Source of the DNA: Burkholderiaceae bacterium
GTDB taxonomy: Bacteria > Pseudomonadota > Gammaproteobacteria > Burkholderiales > Burkholderiaceae_C
DNA: 58,854 nt
Assembly: GCA_030654805.1 (NCBI GenBank)
Contig: JAURWR010000050.1
Coordinates: forward strand, 1-58,854
Reading direction: 5' to 3'
Shown piece by piece: positions 26,095-43,849 of the stretch. A model generated the notes under the pieces. The model was not told the origin of the DNA. It saw only the letters and a program-made list of their open reading frames with translations, and made no database searches. The position numbers and the translations under genes are program-made. How positions within the stretch are numbered: position 1 is the first letter of the stretch; each line of letters begins with the position of its first letter.

Positions 26095-26280
26095 TCACAC
26101 CGCCACCACGAAGCGCTCGAGGATCAGCACCGCGAAGAACCCCAGCGCCGCGATCACCACCCACTTGATGATGCGGATGCCGAGCTGGCGGTAGCGCTGC
26201 TGGCCGGTGCCGACGTACATCGCCAGGCACACCAGGCCGGCGACCAGCAACAGCAAGACGACCCACCGGAAGATCAGCAT
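26095..26280 (-). CDS. Small two-helix membrane protein of unknown function
   Basis: 61 residues beginning [17 protein letters not shown], a helix, a short polar loop GTGQQRYRQLGIRI, and a second helix VVIAALGFFAVLILERF. Its ATG shares one base with the lpxC stop (TGATG), so it is probably translated by coupling to lpxC. A GTG codon immediately upstream is an alternative start. No family is recognised; the FRWV start resembles the next gene. Confidence 0.72.
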   Translation of the reverse strand: MLIFRWVVLLLLVAGLVCLAMYVGTGQQRYRQLGIRIIKWVVIAALGFFAVLILERFVVAV

Positions 26281-27215
26281 CACCAGGCCGGCGCCAGTTC
26301 GGCCAGGCCGGCCGGCGCCTTCGACGCATCACCGAAGGTAACGATGTCGTAGCACCCCGGGTCGGCGAGCACGGCGCGCACCAGCTTGTTGTTCAGCGCG
26401 TGCCCCGACTTGAACGCGCTGTAGGCGCCGATCAGCGGGTGGCCGATGATGAACAGGTCGCCGATCGCGTCGAGGATCTTGTGCTTGACGAACTCGTCGT
26501 CGTAGCGCAGCCCGCCGCTGTTGAGCACCTTGTAATCATCGACCACCACCACGTTGTCGAGGCTGCCGCCGAGGCCCAGGCCGCGCGAGCGCATCAGCTC
26601 GACGTCCTTGGTGAAGCCGAAGGTGCGCGCGCGCGCGATCTCGCGCTTGTACAGGCCCGAGCCCATGTCGAACACCACGTGCTGGCCGGTCTGGTTGACC
26701 GCCGGGTGGTCGAACGCGATCTCGAAGGTCAGCTTGTAGCCGTCGAACGGTTCGAGCCGCGCCCACTTCAGGCTGGGCCCCTCGCCTTCGCGCACCTCGA
26801 CCGGCTTCAGGATGCGCAGGAAGCGCTTCGGCGCGTCCTGCAACTCGATGCCGGCGCTTTGCAGCAGGAACACGAACGAGGCCGCCGAGCCGTCGAGGAT
26901 CGGCACCTCTTCGGCGGTGATGTCGACGATCAGGTTGTCGATGCCGAGGCCCGCACAGGCCGACAGCAGGTGCTCGACGGTGTTGACCTTCGGCGCGCCC
27001 GGGTCGCCGCCCGGTGACAAGGCGGTGGCCATGCGGGTGTCGCACACAGAATGCGCATGGACCGGGATGTCCACGGGCTGCGGCAGGTCGACGCGGCGGA
27101 ACACGACCCCGCTGTCCGCCGGGGCCGGGCGCAGGGTCAGTTCGACCCGTTGCCCGCCGTGCACACCCACGCCCACCGCGCGGGTCAGCGATTGGAGTGT
27201 GCGTTGGGCCAGCAT
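26280..27215 (-). CDS. lpxC: UDP-3-O-acyl-N-acetylglucosamine deacetylase
   Basis: 311 residues. LpxC removes the acetyl group from UDP-3-O-acyl-GlcNAc, the committed step of lipid A synthesis, in the cytoplasm. The zinc-site pieces are visible: [14 protein letters not shown] and [14 protein letters not shown] (HxxxD); the catalytic [10 protein letters not shown] and FDHP segments are intact. Length is normal (about 305). It is the last large gene of the dcw cluster, 141 bases from ftsZ across a spacer with two palindromic repeats. Confidence 0.97.
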
Positions 27216-27241
27216 CGGATCATTCTAGAGAGGGGTGGACT

Positions 27242-27264
27242 CCCTCGCCCCGTTGGGGAGAGGG
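27242..27264. repeat. REP-like hairpin, copy A (ftsZ-lpxC spacer)
   Basis: An imperfect 10-bp inverted repeat, CCCTCGCCCC / GGGGAGAGGG around a GTT loop. The same unit, with TTT in the loop, occurs on the minus strand at 40471-40493 inside the murE-murF frame; 22 of 23 bases are identical. A partial second unit (TGGGGAGAGGGG) follows at 27265-27276. Confidence 0.8.
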
Positions 27265-27303
27265 TGGGGAGAGGGGCCGCGTGGCACCGAGCTTGTCCGA
27301 AAG

Positions 27304-27339
27304 GCCCCCATCCCGGCCTTCCCCCAGCGGGGGAAGGAG
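27304..27339. repeat. REP-like hairpin family B (ftsZ-lpxC spacer)
   Basis: Contains a perfect 9-bp stem CCTTCCCCC (27317-27325) pairing with 27329-27337 around loop AGC. The whole 36-base stretch is repeated without mismatch at 54261-54296, in the gltK-gltL spacer. It shows no U-run and is downstream of ftsZ on the minus strand. Confidence 0.85.
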
Positions 27340-27356
27340 CGAACTGCAAGCCGATA

Positions 27357-28571
27357 TCAATCGGCCTGTTTCCTCAGGAACGCCGGGATCTCGATCTCGT
27401 CCATGCCATTGCTGGACAGCGCATCGACCTTGGCCGCTGCGGTACGGGTGCGCCAGACGCTGGGCGTGTTCAGCCCGACGTAGTCGGTACTACTATGCCC
27501 GCCCTGCATGCCGAGGCCCGGTGCGTTCAGCGCATGGTTCAGGATCGGCAGGTTGTCGGTGCCGGTGCGTTGCATCGGGGCACTGTGAACAACCGTGATC
27601 GGCGCCTGCTGGCGGCGTGCCGGGCTCAGACCGGTGGCGATCACCGTCACGCGCAGCTTGTCGCCCAGAGCCTCGTCGTACACGGTACCGAAGATCACGT
27701 GCGCGTCTTCTGCGGCGTAGCGGCGGATGGTGTTCATCGCGTTCTTGCTTTCCGACAGCTTCAGCGTGCTGCGGTTGGCGGCGATCAGCACCAGCACGCC
27801 CTTCGCGCCCGACAGGTCGATGCCCTCGAGCAGCGGGCACGCCACGGCCGCGTCAGCCGCCTTGGTCGCGCGGTCCGGACCACTTGCTTGCGCGGTGCCC
27901 ATCATCGCCTTGCCGGGCTCGCTCATTACCGTCTTCACGTCCTCGAAGTCGACGTTGACCATGCCGTGCATGTGAATGATGTCGCTGATGCCGCCGACGG
28001 CGTTCTTCAGCACGTCGTTGGCTTCAGCAAACGCCTGGTCCTGCGTCACGTCGTCGCCCAGCACCTCGAGCAGCTTCTCGTTGAGCACCACGATCAGCGA
28101 ATCGACGTTGGCTTCCAGCTCGGCCAGTCCGGCATCGGCGGCCTTCATGCGGCGGTTGCCCTCGAAGTCGAACGGCTTGGTCACCACGCCGACGGTCAGG
28201 ATGCCCATTTCCTTCGCGATGCGCGCGATCACCGGCGCGGCGCCGGTGCCGGTGCCGCCGCCCATGCCGGCGGTGATGAACAGCATGTGCGCGCCGCTGA
28301 TGGCCTGGCGGATGCGCTCGTCGGCTTCCAGCGCCGCGGCCTTGCCGGCCTCGGGCTTGGCACCGGCACCCAGACCGGTGCTGCCGAGCTGGATCAGGTG
28401 GTGTGCCGTGGAGCGGTTGAGAGCCTGCGCATCGGTGTTCGCGTTGACGAACTCGACGCCTTGAACGCCCTGCGAAATCATGTGGTCGACCGCGTTGCCG
28501 CCGCCGCCGCCGACGCCGATCACCTTGATCTGGGTGCCGAGGTCAAATTCTTCGATCATTTCGATGGCCAT
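27357..28571 (-). CDS. ftsZ: Cell division protein FtsZ
   Basis: A 404-residue tubulin-like GTPase that forms the Z-ring. IKVIGVGGGGGNAVDHMI and the tubulin signature GGGTGTGAAP bind GTP; NVDFEDVKTVM follows in the T7 region. The C-terminal peptide EIEIPAFLRKQAD, after a variable linker, is the FtsA/ZipA-binding tail. The ATG at 28571 has a TGGAG ribosome site. A 226-base spacer with strong hairpins separates it from ftsA, so ftsZ may have its own promoter. Confidence 0.98.
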   Translation of the reverse strand: MAIEMIEEFDLGTQIKVIGVGGGGGNAVDHMISQGVQGVEFVNANTDAQALNRSTAHHLIQLGSTGLGAGAKPEAGKAAALEADERIRQAISGAHMLFITAGMGGGTGTGAAPVIARIAKEMGILTVGVVTKPFDFEGNRRMKAADAGLAELEANVDSLIVVLNEKLLEVLGDDVTQDQAFAEANDVLKNAVGGISDIIHMHGMVNVDFEDVKTVMSEPGKAMMGTAQASGPDRATKAADAAVACPLLEGIDLSGAKGVLVLIAANRSTLKLSESKNAMNTIRRYAAEDAHVIFGTVYDEALGDKLRVTVIATGLSPARRQQAPITVVHSAPMQRTGTDNLPILNHALNAPGLGMQGGHSSTDYVGLNTPSVWRTRTAAAKVDALSSNGMDEIEIPAFLRKQAD

Positions 28572-28676
28572 GTTGTGCTCCAGTGCTTGTGTGCAGTTGC
28601 CGTGGTGAATATGAAACCGGGTTGATCCCGTGTTTGCTGTGTTCCGTCTGTCGTCTCTTTGTTTCAGGGTCGCATT

Positions 28677-28738
28677 CGCCACCTGCCGGGTGGCGGTCGC
28701 GCCGGGGGCGCGCGGTTGCCGCCCGGGTGACAACCGCG
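28677..28738. repeat. Hairpin cluster in the ftsA-ftsZ spacer
   Basis: Two perfect stems are visible: CGCCACC/GGTGGCG at 28677-28683 and 28689-28695, and CGCGGTTG/CAACCGCG at 28711-28718 and 28731-28738. They are separated by a GC-only run. In the ftsA-ftsZ transcript they would lie 106-168 bases before the ftsZ start. There is no U-tract, so they suggest processing, stabilisation or a partial barrier, not a standard terminator. Confidence 0.5.
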
Positions 28739-28797
28739 TTCGGTCTGGGTGTCGCTGGTGGGGTGGATCATCGGAGGTCCGTGCGATGGGTGCGAGT

Positions 28798-30027
28798 TCA
28801 GAAATTGCCGAGGAACCAGTCGCGTGCGCGACCCAGAACGGTCTTGACCGAGCCGGCCTGCTGCGCCGCGCGCAGGCCGCGCGAACGAGCAATGCGGCCC
28901 TCTTCGAGCAGTCCCATCACGGTGGCCGAACGGGTGTTCGCGACCATGTCCTGCAACGCACCGTGGTACAGCGGGATGCCCTTGCGCACCGGCTTCAGGA
29001 AGATGTCCTCCCCCAGCTCGACCATGCCCGGCATCACCGCCGCGCCGCCGCAGATCACGATGCCCGACGACAGCAGCTCTTCGTAGCCGGACTCGCGGAT
29101 GACCTGGTGCACCAGCGAATAGATCTCCTCGATGCGCGGCTCGATCACGCCGGCCAGCGCCTGGCGGCTCAGCATGCGCGGCGCGCGGTCGCCGAGGCCG
29201 GGCACTTCGAGCTGGTCGCTCGGGTCGGCCAGCAGCTGCTTGGCAACGCCGTATTCGACCTTGATTTCCTCGGCATCCTTGGTCGGCGTGCGCAGCGCCA
29301 TCGCGATGTCGCTGGTGATCAGGTCGCCGGCGATCGGAATCACGGCGGTGTGGCGGATCGCGCCGGCCGTGAAGATCGCCACATCGGTGGTGCCGGCACC
29401 GATGTCGACCAGCGCGACACCCAGGTCTTTCTCGTCCTCGGTCAGCACAGCGTGGCTGCTGGCGCTCGGGTTCAGCACCAGTTGATCGACTTCGAGGCCA
29501 CAGCGGCGCACGCATTTCACGATGTTCTCGGCCGCGCTCTGCGCGCCGGTCACGATGTGCACCTTGACTTCGAGGCGGCCGCCGCTCATGCCGATCGGCT
29601 CTTTCACTTCGTGGCCGTCGATGACGAATTCCTGCGGCTCGACCAGCAGCAGGCGTTGGTCATTCGGGATGTTGATCGCCTTCGCGGTCTCGACCACCCG
29701 CGCCACGTCGACCGGTGTCACTTCCTTGTCGCGCACGATCACCATGCCGGTCGAGTTCTGGCCCCGGATGTGGCTGCCTGTGATGCCGGTGTAGACGTGC
29801 GTGATCTTGCAATCGGCCATCATTTCGGCCTCTTTCAGCGCCTGCTGGATGCTCTGCACGGTGGCATCGATGTTCACCACCACGCCACGCTTCAGGCCGT
29901 GCGTCGGCGCGCTGCCGAGACCGGCCACGCGCAGCTCGCCGCCGGGCAGCAACTCGGCCACGACCACCATCACCTTCGCCGTGCCGATGTCGAGACCGAC
30001 CACCAGATCTTTCAGTTCCTTGGCCAT
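28798..30027 (-). CDS. ftsA: Cell division protein FtsA
   Basis: 409 residues, actin-like ATPase that ties FtsZ to the membrane. LVVGLDIGTAKVMVVVAE is the phosphate-1 loop; the 1C subdomain follows; LGVALVDIGAGTTDVAIF is phosphate-2; SGIVICGGAAVMPGM is the adenosine motif. The C-terminal helix VLGRARDWFLGNF is the amphipathic membrane-targeting sequence. It follows ftsQ after 13 bases. Confidence 0.97.
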   Translation of the reverse strand: MAKELKDLVVGLDIGTAKVMVVVAELLPGGELRVAGLGSAPTHGLKRGVVVNIDATVQSIQQALKEAEMMADCKITHVYTGITGSHIRGQNSTGMVIVRDKEVTPVDVARVVETAKAINIPNDQRLLLVEPQEFVIDGHEVKEPIGMSGGRLEVKVHIVTGAQSAAENIVKCVRRCGLEVDQLVLNPSASSHAVLTEDEKDLGVALVDIGAGTTDVAIFTAGAIRHTAVIPIAGDLITSDIAMALRTPTKDAEEIKVEYGVAKQLLADPSDQLEVPGLGDRAPRMLSRQALAGVIEPRIEEIYSLVHQVIRESGYEELLSSGIVICGGAAVMPGMVELGEDIFLKPVRKGIPLYHGALQDMVANTRSATVMGLLEEGRIARSRGLRAAQQAGSVKTVLGRARDWFLGNF

Positions 30028-37873: not shown

Positions 37874-39052
37874 TCATCGCAGCTTCAGGCTGGCGAGCCC
37901 GATCAGGCACAACAGCATGGTGATGATCCAGAAACGCACGACGACCTGCGTCTCCTTCCAGCCCGATTTCTCGAAATGGTGGTGCAGCGGCGCCATCTTC
38001 AGGATGCGCTGACCGGTGCCGTAACGCTTGCGCGTGTATTTGAACCAGCTCACCTGCAGCATCACCGACAGCGCCTCGACGACGAACACGCCGCCCATGA
38101 TCCCGAGCACGATTTCCTGTCGCGTGATGACCGCGATCGCGCCCAGCGCCCCGCCCAGCGACAGCGCGCCCACATCGCCCATGAACACCTGCGCCGGGTA
38201 GGTGTTGAACCACAGGAACGCCAGACCCGAACCCGCCATCGCCGCGCAGAACACCAGCAACTCGCCGGTGCCGGGGATGTGCGGGAACAACAGGTACTTG
38301 CTGTAGTACGCATTGCCGGTCACGTAGGCAAAGACGCCCAACGCCGAACCCACCATCACCACCGGCATGATCGCCAGACCGTCGAGCCCGTCGGTGAGAT
38401 TCACCGCGTTGCTGGCGCCGACGATCACGAACCACGTCAGCACGATGAAGCCGTAGACGCCCAGCGGATAGCTGACGGTCTTGAAGAACGGAACGATCAA
38501 GTCGGCAGCCGGTGGCAGGTCGTTGGAGAACCCGCTCTGCACCCAGCGCATGAACAGTTCGAGGACGCGCAGGTTGGAGGTCTCGCTGACGCTGAACGCC
38601 AGGTAGAACGCGGCCAGCAGACCGATCAACGACTGCCAGAAGAACTTGTCGCGCGAGCTCATGCCCTCGGGGTTCTTGTCCACGACCTTGCGCCAGTCGT
38701 CGACCCAGCCGATCGCACCGAAGCCCAGCGTGACCAGCAGCACGATCCACACGAATCGGTTGGACCAGTCGAACCACAGCAGCGTGGAAACGGTGATGCC
38801 GATCAGGATCAGCACGCCGCCCATCGTTGGCGTGCCCGACTTGCTGAGGTGCTCCTGGATGCCGTACTCGCGGATCGGCTGACCGATCTTCAGCGCGGCG
38901 AGACGACGGATCACCCACGGGCCGAAGGCCAGGCCGATCAGCAGCGCGGTCATCGCGGCCATCACAGCTCGGAAGGTGATGTACTGGAAGACGCGGAGAA
39001 AGCCCAGCTCCGGGTACATCGTCTGCATCCACTGCGCCAGGTTAAGCAGCAT
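37874..39052 (-). CDS. mraY: Phospho-N-acetylmuramoyl-pentapeptide-transferase
   Basis: 392 residues, polytopic inner-membrane enzyme making lipid I from undecaprenyl phosphate and UDP-MurNAc-pentapeptide. [14 protein letters not shown] is the MraY signature, [16 protein letters not shown] carries the Asp/Asn nucleotide site, [13 protein letters not shown] and the histidine loop [13 protein letters not shown] are intact. About ten membrane helices. Its start overlaps the end of the murE-murF frame by 11 bases. Confidence 0.98.
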
Positions 39053-42032
39053 GCGAGCCCCCGGCCGGCGTGAATGCCGCTGCCATCTTCAACGCGGCGA
39101 CCACCCGCTCCATCTTCATGAAGCGCGAGCCCTTGACCAGAACGGATGCAGCCGCCGGGGCCTGTGGCAGAGCCAAAAGCAAGGCATCGACCGAATCGAA
39201 ATGCCGTGCCGCGCCATAGGCCGCTGCGGCATGCGCGCACAGCGGCCCGACGGTCCAAAACGCATCGATGCCGACGCGGCGAGCGAACTCGCCGACCTCA
39301 CGATGAAACGCCGGGCCCTGGTCACCGACCTCGCCCATGTCGCCCAGGGCCAGCCAGCGCGGACCCGGCAACCCGGCCAGCACGTCGATCGCGGCACGCA
39401 CCGAGTCGGGGTTGGCGTTGTAGCTGTCGTCGATCAGCGTGACGGACCGACCGTCGCGGACCAGGCTGAAGGCTTGCGAGCGGCCCTGCACTGCGGTGAA
39501 CGATTCAAGACCACGCACGACCGCTTCGAGCGGGCAGCCGGCGGCCAGCGCGCAGGCGGTGGCCGCGAGCGAATTCTTGACGTTGTGCAGACCAGCGATG
39601 CGCAGCTTCAGCGTGGCGTTGCCAAACGGCGTGCGCAGATCGACGGCCCAGTGGTCCGCAGACCAGGATGCGGTGGCGGTGACGTCGGCCGACACCGCGC
39701 GGCCAGAGTCGGCCCCGAGCGCGAACGTCAGCACACGCCGCGGGTCAGCCAGTGCGCGCCACAGCGGTGTGTGCTCCTCGTCGGCCGGAAACACCGCGAC
39801 GCCATCGGCACCGAGCGCCTCGATGACGCTGCCGTTCTCGCGCGCCACCGCCTCGACGCTGGCCATGAACTCCTGGTGCTCGCGCTGCGCGTTGTTGACC
39901 AGCGCGACGGTCGGCGCAGCCATCACGGCCAGTTGCGCGATCTCGCCCGGGTGGTTCATGCCGAGTTCGACGACCCCGGCACGGTGAAACGTGGTGTCGT
40001 CCTGCCGCAAGCGCAACAGCGTCAGCGGCACCCCGATGTCGTTGTTGAAATTGCCTTCGGTCGAGAACGCACCCGCTCCATGCCAGGCACGCAGGACCGC
40101 CGCGATCATCTGCGTCACCGTGGTCTTGCCGTTGCTGCCGGTGACCGCGATCAGCGGCAGATCGAAGCGGCGACGCCATCCCGCAGCCAGTGTGCCCAGG
40201 GCAGTGCGACTGTCATCGACCAACACGCCCGGCAGTCCGGCTTCGGCGATGCCGCGCTCGGCCAGTGCCGCGACCGCGCCGGCCGCCCGGGCCTGCGGCA
40301 GGAAATCATGTGCATCGAAGCGTTCGCCACGCAGCGCGACGAACAGGTCTCCGGCGCGCAGGGTTCGGGTGTCGGAGTGGACGCGCAGGATAGGCGTGGT
40401 GCCATCGCCCATCAGCCGCGAGTCGGCCATCAGGGCATGTGCTTGCGAGAGCGTCATCATCTGCTCGACTCCCTCTCCCCAAAGGGGCGAGGGTGTCAGC
40501 AGCGCAAGCGCAGTGCGAGCCTCAACGACATCATCGAACGGATGCCTGACCCCCGCCACCTCTTGATGCGCCTCATGCCCCTTTCCCGCGATCAGGATGA
40601 CGTCGTTCGGCCCGGCATGGCTCACCGCATGAGCGATCGCCGCGCGGCGGTCTTCGATGACCTGCGGCTTGGGCTGATCGGCCATGCCCGCGACGATGGC
40701 CGCGATGATCGCGGCCGGCGCCTCGTGCCGCGGGTTGTCGCTGGTGACGACGACCTGCTGCGCCAGGCGTTGCGCGATCTCCCCCATCAGCGGCCGCTTG
40801 ACCGCGTCGCGGTTGCCTCCGCAGCCGAACACGCACCACAGCACACCGCCTCGTTCAGACGCCAACGGTTGCAGCGCACGCAAGGCCTTGTCGAGTGCAT
40901 CGGGCGTGTGGGCGTAATCGACCAGCACCTCGGGCAGCTCGCTGCCAGCGGACGACGCCGGCAATGCGACCCGCTGCATGCGGCCGGGCACCGGCGTCAG
41001 CGCAGCACAGGCCTGCGCCGCATCACGCAGCGAAACACCCAGTGCGCGCAGGGAAGCCACCACCGCCAGCAAATTGGATACGTTGTAGTCACCGATCAGC
41101 GCGGTGCGCAGAGGCACCGCTGGCTCGCCTGACTCGACGAGATCGAACGCCAGACCGCCATCGACGTAATGCACCCCGTGAGCCGCCAGCCGGGCAGCAC
41201 GGGCGGCCGTCGCATGCCCGGTCACGGCGTAAGTCCAAAGGTCGAGCGCGCTGCCGGCGAGCGAGCGCTGCAAAGTCGCGCCCTGCGGGTCGTCGAGGTT
41301 GAGCACGGCGGCTCGCAGGCCGGGCCAGCGGAACAGGTCGACCTTGGCCTGCCAGTAAGCATCCATCGAGCCGTGGAAATCGAGATGGTCCTGCGTGAAG
41401 TTGGTGAACACCGCGACATCGATGTGCGTGCCCGACAGCCGCTGTTCGGCCAGACCGATCGAAGAGGCCTCGATCGCGCAGGCGTTGAATCCGTCGTCGG
41501 CGAAGCGCTTGAGGGCTCGCTGCAAGGTGACCGGGTCGGGGGTCGTCAGGCCGGTCGCCTGCAACGCCGTCGCATCGGTGTGGCCACCCTGGCTGACGGG
41601 CACGGCACCGACACCCAGCGTGCCGATCACGCCGCAGCGTCGATCCAGCCCCGACAGGGCTTGCGCTGCCCACCACGCGGTCGACGTCTTGCCGTTGGTT
41701 CCGGTGACGGCGATCACCGACAGCCGGCGGCTGGGGGCACCGTAGAACGCGCTCGCCAGCGGACCGGTGGCCGCCTTGAGGTTGTCCATCGCGGCGATGC
41801 GAACGTCGTCGAACCCGTGCACCTCGGCGCCGTCGGCTTCGACCAGGCAGGCTGGCGCACCGGCCGCCAGCGACGGATAGACGTGGCGTCGACCGTCCTG
41901 CGCCTGACCCGGCCACGCGATGAAGGCGTCGCCGGGTTCGAGACGACGGCTGTCGGTCGCGAGACCGCGCACACCGCGTTGCGCCAGCCAGGACAGGGCC
42001 GCCGGAACCGAGCCGAGTGTCTGCAGCGCCAT
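39042..42032 (-). CDS. murE-murF: MurE-MurF fusion (UDP-MurNAc tripeptide synthetase / D-Ala-D-Ala-adding ligase)
   Basis: One 996-residue frame with two complete Mur ligases. Residues 1 to about 513 are Mur[17 protein letters not shown]-loop [13 protein letters not shown] (near 110), [12 protein letters not shown], and the meso-diaminopimelate-specifying DNPR (near 433). Residues about 525-996 are MurF, with two Met codons at the junction (40460 and 40457), P-loop [13 protein letters not shown] (near 630) and [12 protein letters not shown]. Residues about 514-521 ([10 protein letters not shown] region) are encoded by a REP-like hairpin. MurE-MurF fusions are known in Bordetella; the repeat-derived linker is the odd point. 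ATG 42032 overlaps the ftsI stop by one base (TGATG). Confidence 0.95.
40471..40493. repeat. REP-like hairpin, copy B, inside the murE-murF coding frame
   Basis: On the minus strand it reads CCCTCGCCCC, TTT loop, GGGGAGAGGG. It matches the non-coding copy at 27242-27264 at 22 of 23 bases, the single difference being in the loop. It falls exactly where a MurE stop codon and MurF start would be expected, and is translated in frame as part of the linker. Confidence 0.85.
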
Positions 42033-43849
42033 CAGAAGCTCTCGTCCTCGGCGCGCACATCGCGCGCGATGATCTGCGTCTTCACGTCGAGGTCGGGCGC
42101 CACGCCCAGCGTGCGCAGCGTGTTCTGCACCAGATCGCTGAAGACCGGGGCCGCAACGTCGCCGCCGTACCACTTGCCGGCGGTCGGCTGGTCGACCATC
42201 ACCGCGACGATGATGCGTGGGTTGTTGATCGGTGCGATACCGACGAACCAGGAGCGGTACTTCTTGTTGTCGTAGCTCTTGCCTTCGTGGCTGTAAGCGG
42301 TGCCCGACTTGCCCCCGACCGAGTAGCCCACGGTCTGCGCCTTCGGCGCGGTGCCGCCGGGGCCGGTGACCAGGGCCAGCATCTGGCGCACGGCTTGTGC
42401 CGTCTGCGGCGAGATCACCCGCAATCCATTCACCTTGGCGTCGGCGCCCTGCGCCTCGCTTTTCATCAGGGTGACCGGAATCAGCTCGCCGTCGTGCGCA
42501 AACACCGTGTACGCATGTGCGATCTGGAACAGCGACGCCGACAGGCCGTAGCCGTAGCACATCGTCGCGTGCATGGTCTCGTCCTTGGCGATCGCCTTGG
42601 CCGACGGCAAACGCCCGCGCACGGAACCGGGGAAGCCGATCTGCGGCTTCTGCCCGAAACCCACGGCGGTGTACAGATCCCACATCTCGCGCGGCTGGAA
42701 CATCAGCCCCATGCGCATCGAGCCGATGTTGCTGGACTTCTGGATCACCTCGGCCACGGTCAGGTCACCGTGCGGATGGGCGTCGCTGATGACGAACCCG
42801 CCCATCGCAATGCGGCCCGGCGCGGTGTGGATGATGGTGTCGGCCTTGACGCGGCCGGTCTCGAGCGCCCAGGCCGCGATGAAAGGCTTGACCGTCGAGC
42901 CCGGCTCGAAGGTGTCGGTCAGTGCGCGGTTGCGCAGCTGCTCGCCGGTCAGGTTGCGGCGGTCCGACGGCGCATAGCTGGGGTAATTGGCCAGCGCCAG
43001 CACCTCGCCGGACTGCGCGTCGAGCACCACCACGCTGCCGGCCTTGGCCTTGTTCTCGGCGACCGCGTCGCGCACCCGCCGGTAGGCGAAGTACTGGATC
43101 TTCGAATCGATCGTCAACTGGATGTCGCGACCGTCGACCGGCGCCACACTGTCCCCGATGTCCTCGACGACCTTGCCGAGACGGTCCTTGATGACGCGGC
43201 GGGTGCCGTTGCGGCCGGTCAGCTCCTTCTGGAAGGCGAGCTCCATGCCTTCCTGACCGCGGTTCTCGGCGTCGGTGAAGCCGACCACGTGGGCCGCCGC
43301 CTCGCCCTCGGGATACTTGCGCTTGACCTCGCGCAACTGGTGCACGCCCGGCAACCCGAGCGCCAGGGCGTCCTTGGCCATCGTGTCGTCGACCTGCCGC
43401 TTGAGCCAGACGAAGTTGGGGTTGTCATCCAGGCGCTCGTCGAGCGTCTTCGGCGACATGCCCAGCACCTTGGCCAGTTGGCGGCGCGCGCGCGTGTCGG
43501 CCTCGAAATCCTTGGGAATCGCCCACAGCGACGGGGCCGGCACGCTGGAGGCCATCAACTGTCCGTTGCGATCGAGAATGCGTCCGCGGTTCGCCGACAG
43601 GTCGAGCGTGCGCGCATAGCGGGCCTCGCCCTGCTTCAGATAGAAGGACGAGCCGATCACCTGCACGTAAAGCGCCCGGCCCAGCAAAACGCAGAAGGCC
43701 AGCCCGACCAGCGCCACCAGCACCTTCGAACGCGATGCCGGCGTGCGTGAAGCCAGCAACGGGCTGCTCGCGTAGTTGATGCTGCGCGCGTGCCCGGTGG
43801 CCGGCTTCGCAACGGCCCCCGCGCGGGCGTTCCAGCCACCGGGCCTCAT
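42032..43849 (-). CDS. ftsI: Peptidoglycan D,D-transpeptidase FtsI (PBP3)
   Basis: 605 residues, septal class B penicillin-binding protein. A cytoplasmic N-terminus of about 40 residues is followed by one membrane helix (VLVALVGLAFCVLLGRALYVQVI). The pedestal domain opens RGRILDRNGQLMASS. The transpeptidase domain has STVK with Ser318, SSN near 372-374, and KSGT near 514-517. Substrate-loop residues YGYGLSAS follow ATMC. ATGA overlap with ftsL. Confidence 0.97.
   Translation of the reverse strand: MRPGGWNARAGAVAKPATGHARSINYASSPLLASRTPASRSKVLVALVGLAFCVLLGRALYVQVIGSSFYLKQGEARYARTLDLSANRGRILDRNGQLMASSVPAPSLWAIPKDFEADTRARRQLAKVLGMSPKTLDERLDDNPNFVWLKRQVDDTMAKDALALGLPGVHQLREVKRKYPEGEAAAHVVGFTDAENRGQEGMELAFQKELTGRNGTRRVIKDRLGKVVEDIGDSVAPVDGRDIQLTIDSKIQYFAYRRVRDAVAENKAKAGSVVVLDAQSGEVLALANYPSYAPSDRRNLTGEQLRNRALTDTFEPGSTVKPFIAAWALETGRVKADTIIHTAPGRIAMGGFVISDAHPHGDLTVAEVIQKSSNIGSMRMGLMFQPREMWDLYTAVGFGQKPQIGFPGSVRGRLPSAKAIAKDETMHATMCYGYGLSASLFQIAHAYTVFAHDGELIPVTLMKSEAQGADAKVNGLRVISPQTAQAVRQMLALVTGPGGTAPKAQTVGYSVGGKSGTAYSHEGKSYDNKKYRSWFVGIAPINNPRIIVAVMVDQPTAGKWYGGDVAAPVFSDLVQNTLRTLGVAPDLDVKTQIIARDVRAEDESF

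Follow-up and report, generated by a model that had tools for sequence, protein, structure and literature searches.

The window analysed here, a stretch of 58,854 nucleotides of DNA from a Burkholderiaceae bacterium, encodes MurE and MurF in a single polypeptide, and the codons which join the two ligases lie mostly within a short palindromic repeat. This raises the question of how the two genes became one, and whether the repeat was the agent of their fusion.

A single reading frame for MurE and MurF

The first-pass annotation of this DNA had described murE and murF as one frame of 996 codons (39042-42032, minus strand). Translation into 996 residues, with the terminal stop codon as the only one, bears this out, as does the match of the protein to NCBIfam family NF008896 (bifunctional MurE/MurF; PRK11929), with a score of 1099.6 bits against a cut-off of 1023 over residues 11-983. 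Both modules also score above their family cut-off in the profile search. The ATG start codon of MurE at 42032 overlaps the stop codon of an upstream ftsI-like gene (42032-43849), for which transpeptidase families were matched by profile search. Blastn comparison of the murE-F DNA against plasmid records yielded 31 records, none of which covers 80 % of the query. The features of the locus are:

40506..42032, minus strand: MurE module, residues 1-509 (TIGR01085 over residues 21-509)
40467..40497, minus strand: 31-base solo palindrome GACA-CCCTCGCCCC-TTT-GGGGAGAGGG-AGTC, putative boundaries placed from other copies
40471..40493, minus strand: 23-base core reported earlier, located by sequence match
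40461..40496, minus strand: translated linker of 12 residues (513-524), mostly repeat-encoded, from the translation
40469..40473, minus strand: GGGAG, a Shine-Dalgarno-like motif 8 bases ahead of the original MurF ATG, located at the element's right end
40455..40460, minus strand: ATGATG, the kept MurF start codons; the internal TGA is the MurE stop of the congeners, here out of frame
39042..40460, minus strand: MurF module, residues 525-996 plus stop (TIGR01143 over residues 554-981)

The two Met codons that had been assigned to the old MurF start are indeed found at 40460 and 40457, and 10 bases (AGTCGAGCAG) separate the 23-base core from the first of them.

The junction palindrome and its copies

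The 23-mer CCCTCGCCCCTTTGGGGAGAGGG, which reads CCCTCGCCCC-TTT-GGGGAGAGGG, is present at 40471-40493 on the minus strand as first noted, with none of 100 shuffles containing a match within 3 mismatches. The genome-wide search that had been proposed for this unit located 16 distinct sites with no more than 3 mismatches, one of them matched on both strands, in the genome to which the window belongs (G000), as opposed to no sites for the reversed-pattern control, and the exact 23-mer recurs at two other sites (C19 and C38). A second copy at 27242-27264 had been reported as a non-coding match, and its identity of 22/23 stands, but it constitutes only the left hairpin of a ~100-base doublet:

27238..27342, plus strand: intergenic family doublet, left hairpin at 27242-27264 and right hairpin at ~27317-27338
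27357-28892, minus strand: ftsZ, flanking the doublet
26280-27215, minus strand: lpxC, flanking the doublet

If transcribed, this doublet could fold into a hairpin of very high stability (-75 kcal/mol over 121 bases; z -4.02).

When aligned, the copies fall into two forms, ~100-base doublets and 31-base solos. A full doublet comprises a left hairpin GACTCCCTCGCCCC-NNN-GGGGAGAGGG, followed by TGGGGGTGAGGGGC, a variable middle that is longer in some doublets, GCCCTCACCCC and a right hairpin CCCTCTCCC-NNN-GGGAGAGGGAG, with its ends near GACT...AGTC or GCT...AGC. The clear solos have a GACT-like start, the core and an AGTC end (murE-F, maf and tex; that of queG ends in AATC), and a solo could be derived from a doublet via deletion between two GGGAGAGGG stretches. 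While the 23-base core proposed as the repeat unit is present, the other family copies suggest a unit of 31 bases instead, which would set the exact limits of the junction insert at 40467-40497. The 31-mer is predicted to form an RNA hairpin of -19.4 kcal/mol (z -3.54). An intrinsic terminator at this hairpin is disfavoured, as no T-run follows it on inspection by eye.

Separate murE and murF genes in the congeners

In all fourteen congeners (G001-G014) murE and murF are separate, with the MurE stop codon TGA shared in part with the start of MurF (as ATGA in 12/14; as GTGA in 2/14, G004 and G008). The repeat is absent from the junction in 14/14, the nearest 23-mer there differing from it at 9 to 11 positions. 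Although the MurE N-terminus of G009 and G012 is located on another contig, the junction itself is present in both. A MurE+MurF tree was constructed for 84 taxa, incorporating 13 genus genomes (without G009 and G012) and 71 of 80 sampled loci, from which seven loci belonging to genus genomes and two partial loci were dropped. In this tree G000 adjoins the split G004, and all 12 congeners included are split. Fitch parsimony on the midpoint-rooted tree gave 5 changes and, as read, the tree places G000, L036 and two groups including Aquabacterium as fused within a mostly split clade. The 80 sampled loci include 47 that are fused, 32 that are split and one that is unclassed. These counts do not represent population frequencies, as the loci were sampled for their similarity to a query that is itself fused. 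Since G000 stands beside a split sister, the fusion and the repeat map as derived states to a single branch, and the fusion in G000 is, on this sequence-based placement, of independent origin inside a split genus. Comparison of the junctions of relatives had been put forward in the first-pass annotation as the test of a repeat-made fusion, and its outcome is favourable, with separate repeat-free genes in the congeners and a repeat-bearing fusion nested among them.

Locus L036, from a Burkholderiaceae MAG (MAG.507), encodes an isolated fused MurE-MurF in a split clade, and has a 9-bp perfect inverted repeat at its junction. It was rejected as a parallel case, as this palindrome is unrelated and occurs at one site only in its genome.

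Frame arithmetic at the overlap

The murE and murF genes of the congeners share four bases and are read in different frames. Excision of 40467-40497 in silico gives a frame ending in ...ALALLSR*, with the TGA inside ATGATG, which is the ATGA overlap of the congeners; this result follows because 31 is 1 mod 3. Among 169 excision windows, made up of the core plus 0-12 bases on either side, 52 restore the exact ATGA overlap, and in a further 4 the frame ends at the following TGA. The 56 stop-restoring windows all have a length of 1 mod 3, while the other 113 remain open for at least 60 bases beyond the MurF start. When the net insertion is 1 mod 3, MurE enters the frame of MurF, and the old stop is therefore out of frame and still present. 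The earlier proposal, that insertion of the palindrome removed the stop and made the fusion, thus has to be amended: the repeat is located at the fusion and the congeners are split and repeat-free, but the TGA is retained within ATGATG, having been put out of frame.

The arithmetic is shared by about one third of possible insertion lengths, which would suit the frame change equally. By hand count, the net length relative to the congeners is +13 (G008) to +16 (G001) bases rather than +31, and the murE tail, which is variable, has therefore also changed. At the same place the repeat-free congeners contain GGGAGTC (3/14) or GGAGTC (6/14), so that the right end of the element may be host sequence, and microhomology to the Shine-Dalgarno site of the old MurF start may explain this end.

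A 31-base solo insertion at the murE/murF overlap probably shifted the frame and fused the genes, and free MurF may persist. A solo of the lineage-expanded palindrome would have entered just upstream of the murE stop, where murF overlaps it. Its length of 1 mod 3 would have moved the MurE frame into that of MurF, after which the operon would encode a single MurE-MurF protein. The old MurF start and the Shine-Dalgarno-like site at the right end of the element would have stayed, making internal initiation feasible, and the putative products are two, the fused protein and free MurF. The insertion would in this case be the event that fused the genes. The reverse order, in which a small indel in the ATGA overlap made the fusion and the palindrome later replaced part of the existing linker, is considered unlikely. 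Such an indel may also account for the repeat-free fusions of other Burkholderiales. Palindrome-free fusions do exist among the sampled loci (47/79 classed loci are fused), some fused loci keep MM at the MurF start (L033, L034 and L110), and in Tex the element appears to have replaced a linker with no net gain. This order would, however, require two separate changes at the same position along a single branch, in a genus where the sister G004 and the remaining 13 congeners are split, and the length of the element by itself supplies the required frame change.

Given the retained ATGATG and GGGAG, free MurF may be produced from the internal start. The predicted anti-Shine-Dalgarno duplex has a free energy of -8.0 kcal/mol in G000, the values for the 13 congeners analysed (without G004) ranging from -5.8 to -9.9, and purine-rich GGAG or GGGG motifs occur at about the same position in the congeners. 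That the fusion is purely formal, with MurF made mainly from the internal ATG and the element serving as an mRNA hairpin or regulator and not as a protein linker, is highly improbable. The strength of this duplex, the spacing of GGGAG 8 bases upstream of ATGATG and the -19.4 kcal/mol hairpin would be compatible with it. Nevertheless, the frame is fully open, so that a ribosome finishing MurE should continue into MurF, both modules score above the family cut-off, and all but one of the five GGGAG bases are engaged in pairing within the predicted hairpin.

Translated copies elsewhere in the genome

The junction is one instance of a wider pattern of translated copies. Of the 16 G000 sites, eight are read in frame within conserved genes, namely murE-F, maf, rdgB (HAM1), tex, queG, a YejF-like ABC gene and, twice, a GH94 gene, the last presumably being one cyclic-glucan synthase gene. 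The automatic ORF rule recovered seven in-gene sites and missed QueG. The other eight sites are intergenic or at gene starts, as judged by ORF layout, and include sites before genes matching the prephenate dehydrogenase, MetW, TruB, Rep helicase and PmbA/TldD families.

Leaving murE-F apart, G000 exceeds the congeners in length, by 4 to 55 residues, at five of the seven in-gene sites compared. These include Maf (+13 aa in G000; 5/5 congeners), RdgB (+55 aa; 5/5), QueG (+4 aa; 4/4, with the partial fifth, L164, left out), the linker of the YejF-like ABC protein (+34 to +44 aa; five congeners) and the first GH94 site (+9 to +32 aa; four congeners). Tex (-1 aa; 5/5 congeners) and the second GH94 site (-2 to +1 aa; four congeners) look like replaced linkers, with chance similarity possible for the latter because its repeat match is imperfect (2 mismatches). 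The solos in Maf, QueG and Tex, with their differing net lengths, do not represent a single uniform insertion. In RdgB/HAM1 (L119:1231-2019, minus strand) the 55-residue translated insert, absent from five congeners, is situated in the middle of a small enzyme. The YejF-like ABC gene (L115) was considered as a second repeat-made fusion and rejected, as all five congeners searched have one frame of 628-651 aa; with the congeners already single-frame, the ABC copy is an in-frame insertion only.

That murE and murF are in truth two genes, seemingly joined by an indel miscalled at the palindrome during assembly or base calling, is quite improbable. The junction is a G+C-rich hairpin in a 3.87 Mb draft of 131 contigs with 3.87 % contamination, which is the one assembly analysed. 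Against such an error, the 23-mer is exact at two more sites, and seven other copies leave long conserved frames open through similar sequence.

In translation, seven of the eight in-gene copies give variants of SLSPxGRG, while the murE-F copy gives PSPLWGEG from the other strand. The use of one element frame by 7/8 copies has a probability of ~1.5e-4 under six equal frames. Among 40 copies from other genera, seven lie in ORFs, in four different frames, and no family-wide frame preference is therefore claimed. The in-gene enrichment in G000 is likewise weak (8/16 versus 7/40 in others; Fisher p = 0.02 with QueG and 0.08 by the automatic rule). In G018, a genome of another genus with split murE and murF, a copy of the same family occurs in frame in mid-MurF (G018:C1:~639753; L243 / L250). 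Copies in G019 and G029 (L218, L222, L230, L237 and L238) are found in frames matching the CobN, UvrA, PutA-like, UvrD-type helicase and Mfd-like families; REPs within repair genes are described in PMC3733652.

Distribution and nature of the repeat family

The repeat family is expanded in the lineage of the window genome. Across the 15 genus genomes, the strict pattern occurs at 13 sites in G000 and one in G008, and at none in the other 13. A 31-mer covariance model, with which the best 150 of ~1000-1660 candidates per genome were scored, identified the 16 sites along with a small number of weak matches in G000, two sites in G008 and one weak site in G009, with none in the other 12. Within the bacterial family the strict pattern is patchy, being present in 14 of 90 genomes that represent 90 genera (G000 among them), of which G019 has 35 copies, and the repeat followed by ATGATGAC is restricted to G000 among 399 family genomes (own included).

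In size and form the family resembles REPs, with an imperfect palindrome of 20-40 bases at 16 sites, as solos and doublets. The identity as a REP suggested by the first-pass annotation is not established, since G000 has no match for the RAYT / Y1 transposase (PF01797), against 5/14 control genomes that do, and no GTAG or CGTC tag was seen when the copies were compared by eye, the consensus ending in GACT/AGTC. Because G000 has no RAYT-type match, the element is termed REP-like and not a demonstrated REP. In seven other genomes, PF01797 matches were over the cut-off in four, below it in one and absent from two (G057 and G088, both repeat-bearing), and there is no consistent tie between the presence of a RAYT-type enzyme and that of the repeat.

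Flanks and target sites were analysed for the 43/56 copies with a definable right end, the 13/56 for which no right end was found being dropped. No signal of target-site duplication was observed over these 43 copies (1077/2000 shuffles equal to or above the observed value). Palindromic target sites were also rejected (258/1001 shuffled pairings equal to or above the observed value over 43 copies). Some solos have mutually inverted flanks, including CTGCT/AGCAG at murE-F (40451-40509) and GAATTT/AAATTC at queG (L116). The element is presumed to be mobile. Inverted-repeat doublets of the MITE/BIME type are a known class, which the full G000 copies resemble as ~100-base inverted-repeat doublets; unlike these, the G000 family has neither a target-site duplication signal nor an identified parent transposon.

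Three known systems invite comparison. Rickettsia palindromic elements (RPE) of ~105-150 bp are inserted in frame inside unrelated conserved genes (PMC2229807, PMC10969869), and the reference list of PMC3733652 includes a title on protein-coding palindromes in Wolbachia. Like RPE, the G000 repeat is translated in conserved genes and missing from the orthologues (with a net insertion in Maf, RdgB, the first GH94 site, QueG and the ABC linker). Unlike RPE, the G000 junction copy is a 31-base solo in Burkholderiales that joins two genes. Intragenic REPs occur in several species and the GTAG/CGTC super-families have been distinguished (PMC3733652). The G000 family shares with REPs its hairpins of 20-40 bases, its singletons and opposed doublets and its location in some coding genes, but differs from the GTAG/CGTC REPs in having no such tag in a genome with no PF01797 match. 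The terms 'fusion', 'in frame' and 'mur' do not occur in the main text of PMC3733652. The bifunctional MurE-MurF of Bordetella pertussis is active and has a linker of ~20 residues (PMC6420597). The G000 protein, predicted from its sequence, is similarly a single polypeptide with both ligases, whereas its linker is encoded by a genomic repeat and its origin lies within a split genus.

Implications for gene fusion

Translated palindromes, such as RPE and intragenic REPs, and MurE-MurF fusions, as in Bordetella, are already known. Searches of the open-access (PMC) literature yielded no account of a palindrome located where two adjacent genes have fused. The routes by which genes fuse are usually inferred long afterwards; here the candidate agent is still at the junction, and the split state is preserved in a sister species. 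The case also adds a Burkholderiales example to the palindromes translated in housekeeping proteins, which are best described in Rickettsia. It is possible, though on balance doubtful, that a mobile frame-shifting palindrome made a coupled pair into a working bifunctional enzyme in one step, with an internal start still yielding free MurF, and that such 1-mod-3 solos are recurrent fusers of ATGA-overlapping operon genes, besides adding short linkers to proteins. As 31 is 1 mod 3, it can be predicted that such an element, when located upstream of an ATGA-overlap stop, should fuse the gene pair.
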